NCBI GenBank assembly: GCA_964020155.1
Contig: OZ026560.1
Span: 4,849,259-4,913,258 of the forward strand
Direction of reading: 5' to 3'
Length of the DNA stretch: 64,000 nt
From: Chondrilla cf. caribensis
Lineage: Eukaryota; Porifera; Demospongiae; Chondrillida; Chondrillidae
Shown here: piece by piece, positions 55,493 through 58,400 of the stretch
Layout: every line of letters begins with the position of its first letter
Numbering within the stretch: the stretch's first letter is position 1
Translations under genes and position numbers: made by a program
Notes under the pieces: generated by a model
What the model was told of the DNA's origin: nothing
Database searches by the model: none
The model's input: only the letters and a program-made list of their open reading frames with translations

Positions 55493-58400
55493 ATGGCTAC
55501 TGTTCATAAGACAGCCAGGAAATACGACTGGCTTATTCTACCTGTGGCTCTTGTTTACCGCATTCTGACTGTCTTTATTTGTCAAACTTACTTCGTTCCC
55601 GACGAATATTGGCAAAGTTTAGAGGTTGCCCATAAATATACCTTCGGATATCCTTATGTTGTTTGTTTATTTATTATGTGTTTACGAATGTTTACTAGTA
55701 CAGTGTACCTGTATCTGATGTATGTCGCTGACAGTAACGCGAATGAGTCCTTAGCAAAGGTTACTTATGGTCACGTTACTTGGGAGTGGGACAAAGCAAT
55801 TCGAAGCTCCATCCACCCTTTTATGTTTGTGGGAGTGTACAAGATGCTTTCAATCATCAACCTGGACACCTCTGAGATGATTGTGAGTGGCTGTATTGTT
55901 CTTTTTCATTTTGTCCTCGATTCTTATCGTGAGGCATTCATGTGGAGAGAATCGAAACCTAATATACAGACACTCACACAAACATGGACGCATACAATCG
56001 CACACAAGTACAGACTTGTTTGTTAGATCCTGTGTGTCCCCTTCCCATTCAGGTCCTTTGTCCCAGACTAGTGCAAGCAGTGTTGGCCGCTGTGTGTGAC
56101 TTGTTTGTTTACAAAATAGCTCAACAGCTTTGGAGTTCTAGAGTGTTTGCTCTGTATGCCGTATCCTCAAGTGTGTTGTTACTCTTCCTTTTAACGTACA
56201 CACACACACACACACGTGTGCGTGTGTGTGTGCTGTGAATCAATCCCCTTGACTCTAATTCAGTACATCCTCCATTTCAGTTTCTGGTTCTCCGTCTACT
56301 GTATGACACGCACACTTTCCAACACAGTGGAAACGGTGCTTACAACAATTGGAATACATTACTGGTTGACAGTAGTGTTGTTTTGATTAATCATAACTAT
56401 AACTAAAATGTGTTTTAGTAATGCTCTGGAACTTTTAGTTAATCATAACTATAACTAACTAAAAGTACAGGAGTCGCCTTCAAAAAACTATAACTGTAAC
56501 TAAAAACATGATTAATGTCCCCAACTAAAACTATAATCAAATATCTGCCACAAATGTTATAGTTACTCTACAAGACTATATTGGAGTACAGAGAGACCTT
56601 ATTAGCGCTATAAAATTGTTCCCCAATCAATGGAAATGGTGTGTTTATATACAGATTATTGAAGACTAGGAGCATTGGGAACTATGTAGGCATGAACATA
56701 TCATGATGGTAGAGTGTTCGTGTAAAACACACATTATTGTAACTAATACTATAACTGTAACTATAACTATAACTAGAATATTTACATTTTGAAGTGGAAA
56801 CTGTAACTATAACTAAAATCTAGGAATTGGCTACATACTATAACTAAAACTAAATTTCTATTTTCTGTCATCGGTCGATTAACTATAACTATTACTAAAA
56901 TAGATTTTGCTAACTAAAACAACACTAGTTGACAGGCAGAAAACAATTCAGGTTAGCCCGAATTCTCGGTTTATCTGTTGACTTGTCACCAATATTCTGT
57001 TTGTTTAGATTCTCAAAAATTGGATTCACTTTTGGTGCTCTATCATGTTTGATAAGGCCAACGGCCATTTTTATGTGGTTTCCAATAGCAACCATTCACA
57101 TACTGACCAACCAAAATGGACCACTACTTTCGATATTAAAAGATTTCATCCCTATTGGGTAATGCCATACAAGTGCTCTAAATTATTCTGTCACGACTGA
57201 ACGAATTATCTCAATTCCTCACTCTAGAACATGTCTGCTTATTTTGTCATTTCTTTGTGATTTCATCTTTTACGGAAGGGTAGGTAAAATTATTGTTTCA
57301 ATAAAATTATGGTATTAAATGTTTTTTCAATTAAATTGTGATATTCAATGTTTGTTATCATATTATTTGTTTGTATGCAGTTTGTTTCCGTTCAGTATAA
57401 TTTCCTACATTTCAATGTATTTGAAGGTGTGGCAAATTTTTATGGTACACACCCCTGGCATTGGTAAGTCCCTGTAATCATCTCACAGCTAAATCCACCA
57501 TTTAAACTCTATTATGGCATTGTAGGTATTTCACCCAGGGTGTTGTTGTCGTTTGGTTGTCATGGACACCTGTGGTACTGTTTGCCATTTATGGCATTCT
57601 CCTAAAAACAAAGGAAAAATTGTAGGAATCTTAGTTTTTCTGAATGATGTGTAGATGCTGTTACACTGAGTGTTTCCAACATATTCCAGTTTGAAAGGAA
57701 AAACTAAATCCAAGAGATTGTCCTTCTCCTTGAGGAAGATGTTCACTCTGAATCACCATATTTGGATTTTGCTGTTAATTGTATTCGAAGTATTGGCTTA
57801 CAGGTATACCAGTGGCAGCCATGTTGCTTGTAACCATGGTAACATTGTATTTCGTCTGACATATCTAGTTTTCTGGGTCATAAAGAATTCAGGTTTATTC
57901 TGCCTATTCTACCACTGACAGCAGTATTGATTGGTAGGGCTGTAGTCACCATATCATCCGATATTCCTCACTTGTATTGTGTGCTCTTATTCTCAGCTCC
58001 TAATGTGCACTCTTTGTGGACATCTAGACGAAAATGTGAGTGTGTGCGTGTGCATGTACATGTGTGTGTGGGGGGACGTGTGGATGTGTAGGTAGATGTG
58101 AGATGTGTGGGGGGTGTGAGTGTTGGCGTATGTGGGGACAACGCCTTCCAGACTGGAATTTTCTCGTTTGCTTGCTTCTTCTGTTTGTGTATGTTTATGT
58201 GTGTTTCTAGCAAAATCAACTCGGTATTGAGTTTTATTGATGATATGACGACTTTCACTTTCAGAAGTTGGGAAATTGTATTTGTTTCTCATTCAGCTCT
58301 AAGGGTCCTTTGTGTTGGACTGTTTCTGTCGAATGTTGTTGCAGCTGGTTACTTTTGTTTGGTACATCAAAGAGGGACTCTGGATTCTGTCAGTTTCTTG

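Follow-up and report, generated by a model that had tools for sequence, protein, structure and literature searches.

Ac/Ds belongs to the hAT superfamily, in which the terminal inverted repeats take the form (T/C)A(G/A)NG. SOS splicing is triggered by inverted repeats and has AKAP17A and CAAP1 as its factors; the ends of worm Tc1 are much longer than 12 bp. When maize Ds1 lies in exons, donors and acceptors are located within ~35 bp of its ends (Wessler 1991, via PMC5432752), and two Ds1 donors, common to Ds, were proven by RT-PCR (PMC5432752). Introner families comprise 5 to >2,000 introns each, which are generally spliced more efficiently than other introns, and in one Aureococcus family both splice sites come with the introner and 12 bp are added, composed of 4 bp of the element and the 8 bp duplication (PMC9860276). 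DNA transposons are reported to be excised from animal mRNA, with RTCB ligating the ends (PMC13247085, citing Zhao et al. 2026). No paper on sponge introners was found by title, and PMC9860276 gave no word match for sponge or Porifera.

The locus described here, a transposable element inside a coding exon of the sponge PIGB gene, shares features with each of these systems. As with introners, a transposon and its duplication lie in a coding exon, and codons would be gained in frame if the insert were spliced; unlike introners, only two of the 30 copies compared here disturb a gene, one by hitting a conserved coding exon and one by hitting a donor site, and splicing is hypothetical. The insert resembles Ds1 in being a short non-autonomous element with an 8-bp duplication and candidate splice sites near its ends, but the host is different, and the candidate sites in PIGB are weak. 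The resemblance to SOS splicing is that a DNA element bounded by inverted ends lies in an exon of an animal gene, in a genome where the domains of the two factors are present, whereas its perfect terminal repeats are far shorter than the worm Tc1 ends.

The window, i.e. the whole stretch of 64,000 nucleotides that was analysed, contains the gene of PIGB (GPI mannosyltransferase 3), which is essential according to what is generally known of GPI anchors. The features of the locus are as follows.

55493..59373, forward strand: PIGB gene, 17 exons, from ATG to stop, placed by homology and in-frame joins
56264..56951, forward strand: exon 4 of PIGB, 688 bp including the insert and 125 bp without it, placed by aligning the joined sequence to the homologue P0001, which required no gap
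56365..56372, forward strand: target site duplication, copy 1, 8 bp, GTTGACAG
56373..56927, no strand assigned: hAT-like MITE copy, 555 bp, with perfect 12-bp terminal inverted repeats, from a family at no fewer than 40 places in the genome, PIGB included
56373..56384, forward strand: 5' terminal inverted repeat, TAGTGTTGTTTT
56916..56927, reverse strand: 3' terminal inverted repeat
56928..56935, forward strand: target site duplication, copy 2, 8 bp, GTTGACAG
56372..56928, forward strand: candidate intron, 557 bp, hypothetical, in frame, without stop and adding two residues; its sites are weak

It was found that the PIGB exons, modelled by homology and joined without the insert, gave a product of 526 aa with one stop, which bore out the statement of a preliminary description of this DNA that all exons but the fourth are intact. 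The product matched Pfam Glyco_transf_22 with 295.3 bits. Among the matches listed, its closest relative was P0001 (67% identity, with 70% of the query covered), which reached 72% identity over the shared part in the alignment, while the other 11 aligned homologues showed 39–43%. The named proteins among the best 120 matches of the protein search came from other animals (∼38–43%), and a named sponge protein was absent among these 120. When the genome was searched with P0001, all 12 candidates were scored and 10 of 10 matches fell at the PIGB locus; a second PIGB was thus not found in the assembly, a search that any copy lost during assembly would escape.

The acceptor of exon 4 was read as ...ctaattcag/TACATC (the slash marks the splice boundary). 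Because the alignment to P0001 was gap-free there, exon 4 starts at 56264 and measures 125 nt without the insert, and not 108 nt from 56281 as had been proposed. P0001 also presents the empty site, since the alignment was gap-free across the insertion point (...TVGIHFWLAARRHFRFSTLGF... versus ...TIGIHYWLTGRKQFRFSKIGF...). The interval from ETVLT to IRPT was 29 residues in PIGB, and equally long in both P0001 and the primate protein P0105; the equality claimed earlier was correct, whereas the claimed length of 38 residues was not. Of 120 homologues, 95 were measured at the loop containing the insertion site; these are mostly vertebrate proteins to judge by their names, and 91 of them share the same spacing. 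The loop varied in length in four invertebrate homologues.

Two other introns of the gene deserve mention. Intron 1 (55648-55764) has ATATCCTT at its start and AC at its end, and intron 3 (56161-56263) starts with GTATCCTC and has CCTTGAC shortly upstream of its acceptor; judged by the consensus, both look like minor (U12-type) introns. In nearly every genome only very few introns are of the minor type (PMC10639083), and what look like two minor-type introns within one gene, PIGB, are notable. Elsewhere in the window, long open frames were observed for eIF2B epsilon (2669-4873), a WD40 protein (15634-17736), a KH-domain-containing DEAD-box helicase (27228-30407) and ADP-dependent glucokinase (38391-39449); these four may be few-exon or single-exon genes. 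For eIF2B epsilon (2669-4870), the only organism-named homologues among 120 listed were those of Dysidea avara (50%), Amphimedon queenslandica (47%) and Corticium candelabrum (44%), all three sponges, in keeping with a sponge as the host.

Inspection of the insert confirmed that exon 4 holds an element of 555 bp whose 12-bp terminal inverted repeats (TAGTGTTGTTTT/AAAACAACACTA) are perfect, together with the 8-bp duplication, and also confirmed the early stop, a TGA at element bases 12–14 in the exon 4 frame. TAGTGTTGTTTT and its complement fit the form of hAT ends, and both are perfect in the PIGB copy. No ORF of at least 90 codons was present within 56373-56927 on either strand. The preliminary description had proposed a genome search for further copies, and the search of 137 Mb in 37 contigs returned 42 match rows, which fall at 40 places when the PIGB copy is counted. 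Such recurrence exceeds chance, and this family size is a lower bound, as 40 of 136 candidates were scored. The 30 copies highest in similarity among the 40 were compared: they were 544–568 bp long, and the 8-bp duplication was perfect in 23 of them, had one mismatch in three and more in four, with a few copies sitting in GT repeats, where a duplication tells little. The PIGB insert is a MITE with hAT-like ends, as had been suggested. The genome contained 79 matches to the hAT dimerisation domain, none of which was linked to the MITE ends. Eighteen of these rows covered the same stretch of the domain (15–81) and contained a TGA, and they perhaps represent a single degenerate or intron-bearing family.

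The age of the PIGB copy was estimated from its own changes. It carries three private substitutions in 554 bp (joint fifth fewest of 30) and one inserted base, and its terminal branch of 0.96% was the fifth shortest of 30. It clustered with two copies, L002 and L003, with 98% support, and within this trio it had 5 own changes compared with 7 and 8 in the other two. The nearest of the 29 other copies was 2.17% away. Judged from these sequence comparisons, the PIGB copy is a young, though not an entirely new, member of the family. Because the element moves by cut and paste, the private changes may be older than the insertion itself, and some of them may indeed predate it. The age is compatible with both a segregating and a tolerated allele.

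An ordinary segregating insertion allele of PIGB was considered the likeliest reading, close to the recent or heterozygous insertion suggested in the preliminary description, and is put forward tentatively. The ends, the duplication, the family and the otherwise intact gene at a single locus show that a non-autonomous hAT-type MITE entered, by cut-and-paste, exon 4 of the sole PIGB found; the assembled chromosome would then carry a segregating allele with a truncated or strongly reduced product, and an uninterrupted allele on the other chromosome would supply PIGB. The perfect 8-bp duplication, the intact ends, the early stop and the empty site in P0001 all argue for such an allele. On the other hand, a very recent insertion often has a near-identical sibling, and no copy among the 29 was closer than 2.17%. 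From the viewpoint of population genetics, three (or five) substitutions would be too many for a recessive lethal allele if they came after insertion. A further reading is that the assembly is wrong here, or that this PIGB locus is dead and a working copy exists elsewhere; no point in its support was found. The clean duplication and ends, the open state of all other PIGB exons and the location of 10 of 10 P0001 matches in the assembly at the PIGB locus make it very improbable.

The preliminary description had tried one splice pair, the GT and AG inside the duplications, and had concluded that removal breaks the frame and that this haplotype looks unable to make full PIGB. Its arithmetic was right, since this pair removes 571 bp and the frame is lost, and it was rejected here as well. 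Skipping of exon 4 was likewise ruled out, as the loss of its 125 nt (without the insert) destroys the frame. The first conclusion nevertheless did not stand, and the second may not hold, after GT/GC-AG pairs were enumerated with donors in 56264-56399 and with acceptors as far as the exon 4 end, plus the native acceptor of exon 5: 14 in-frame, stop-free solutions exist, mostly with weak sites, and six of them, in-frame GT-AG solutions, keep the conserved residues. The net changes of these six were +2, +3, 0, +1, −4 and −3 residues, the two residue-losing ones being, as read, combinations of a donor in the 5' repeat with the exon 5 acceptor. Removal of the element by the U12 spliceosome was ruled out by inspection, because neither ATATCCTT nor GTATCCTT, the consensus, is found at the element start.

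The solution adding two residues is the 557-bp candidate intron. Its donor, ACA/GTAGTG, arises from the final G of duplication copy 1 together with the element's TA, and its acceptor, ACACTAG/TTG, from the last TA of the element together with the initial G of copy 2. Removal of this type adds 6 nt (Leu-Thr) in a loop, whatever the element length, and the expected mRNA junction would be ...TTGACA/TTGACAGG..., with two extra codons. A branch-site-like CTAAC starts 19 nt upstream of the end of the acceptor. The strength of the sites was scored with a model trained on PIGB's own 14 U2-type introns only, with the real donors scored leave-one-out. The donor scored 0.3, compared with 1.6–9.0 for the 14 real donors, and was mid-range among 95 decoy GTs; the acceptor scored −0.43, compared with 2.2–7.3 for the 14 real acceptors. 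The acceptor has 7 pyrimidines in 17 positions, where real ones have 10–14, and the donor lacks both G-1 and G+5, at least one of which is present in all 14 real donors. The position of the 557-bp solution below every real donor and acceptor favours the insertion allele.

A different donor, AGT/GTTGTT, outscored two of the 14 real donors and could pair in frame with the exon 5 acceptor with a loss of four residues. This speaks against a simple insertion allele and for removal by splicing, but the training set is so small that the score is weak evidence either way. The chance background of such solutions was obtained from simulated insertions into the PIGB coding sequence, in which an in-frame pair near the ends was available in 722 of 1536 cases (47%, both directions alike). 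As nearly half of the simulated insertions have an in-frame option, having one is no evidence. The 557-type G...G solution, which occurred at 54 of the 1536 simulated sites (3.5%), is mildly notable. Among the 23 perfect duplications of the family, read in the direction of the element, G...G was found in three (L001, L005 and L027) and C...C also in three.

It is unlikely, in our estimate, that the element has become a new, introner-like spliceosomal intron, either with 557 bp taken out and 6 nt gained or with splicing from a donor within the 5' repeat to the exon 5 acceptor at a cost of three to four residues. Such removal would keep the frame and the conserved residues; the rarity of the G...G solution in the simulation and in the family, the CTAAC before the acceptor, the differing loop length in four invertebrate homologues and the relative strength of AGT/GTTGTT are consistent with it. 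These points are countered by the low scores of donor and acceptor and their deviations from the real sites, by the frequency of in-frame options among simulated insertions and by the constant spacing in 91 of 95 homologues measured. Precedents are provided by introners (PMC9860276) and maize Ds1 (PMC5432752).

The other copies were inspected for contact with genes using ORFs of at least 60 codons across the empty site, a screen that shorter exons escape. The 30 copies yielded one hit in a conserved coding exon (PIGB), one at donor position +1 (L005) and one in a multicopy ORF (L002). The copy L005 (C8:1255031-1255583) was observed exactly one base inside an intron of another gene. Through its insertion the boundary ...AGTGGT/GTGAGTC became AGTGGT/GTAGTG... 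ahead of the element, while the old donor now follows the second duplication. By eye, this exon and the following exons share one frame; the gene gave no Pfam match. The insertion thus creates, right at an exon end, a GTAGTG donor identical to that of the 557-bp candidate in PIGB, in favour of spliceosomal removal; with a score of 0.47 it lies below all 14 real PIGB donors, which weighs against it. Going by its sequence, this gene would be broken unless GTAGTG acts as a donor, in which case its mRNA would be unaltered, or the element is otherwise removed. The copy has one private substitution (joint fewest of 30) and a branch of 1.18% (ninth shortest). The private substitutions and branches of the PIGB copy and L005 place both gene-disturbing copies on the young side, a further point for the insertion allele. 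L005 may be either a second hint that an element end serves as donor or a second young harmful insertion.

A search for G-ended termini gave 44 places, compared with 22 for a reversed control, and 30 were read. Besides PIGB, the G...G duplication with both ends was found at L047, L051 and L057; a version of it with one mismatch was present at L053 and L062. L047, L051, L057 and L062 were inspected by eye for coding sequence, and exon contact was seen only at L057, which is the same copy as L005. The sibling copy L002 (C11:2784136-2784690, 97% identical) was observed inside an ORF, for which no Pfam match above the cut-off was obtained. Nine other genome places match this ORF, eight of them with 589–1000 open codons. 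A second insertion into a host-gene exon was thereby ruled out, and since the ORF is multicopy, this copy is uninformative on tolerance.

The inverted ends also raise the question of SOS splicing, in which they would form a hairpin, the element would be excised outside the spliceosome and RTCB would join the mRNA ends. If true, this would let animals tolerate exonic insertions of such elements. The route suits the anatomy of the insert and would be a form of the unusual removal from RNA that the preliminary description had raised. The 60 nt at either end of the element were predicted to pair with each other at −27.9 kcal/mol, compared with −12.9 ± 3.4 kcal/mol for 300 simple shuffles, of which 1/300 was as low. 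The genome contains a CAAP1 domain (42.4 bits, positions 2–39 of 63) and an AKAP-17A RNA-binding domain (102.8 bits, in an open frame of 416 codons), and the same domain searches gave matches in none of 14 control genomes. Nevertheless, the perfect terminal repeat is just 12 bp, the predicted fold of the whole element plus short flanking sequence was ordinary (z −1.30, with 9/100 shuffles as good), and the presence of the CAAP1 and AKAP-17A domains does not establish function. From these sequence features SOS splicing of the PIGB insert appears possible, and on balance we consider it improbable.

The insertion allele thus remains the likeliest reading. If it applies, the locus represents an ordinary allele in an essential gene, and only a caution follows, namely that single-haplotype assemblies show broken genes. 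That an exonic hAT MITE is instead tolerated in an essential single-copy sponge gene through its removal from the RNA, whether by SOS splicing or as a newborn in-frame intron built from the TA ends and the G...G duplication, is an appreciable possibility to which we give less than even weight. The two removal routes would differ in the junction they leave, a GT-AG splice with two extra residues versus excision at the foot of the hairpin or close to it. If RNA removal were true, PIGB would provide a defined natural test case, in what appears to be an early-branching animal, for the birth of an intron from a hAT MITE or for the age of SOS splicing; SOS splicing in a sponge would take the origin of this system back to the root of the animal tree.
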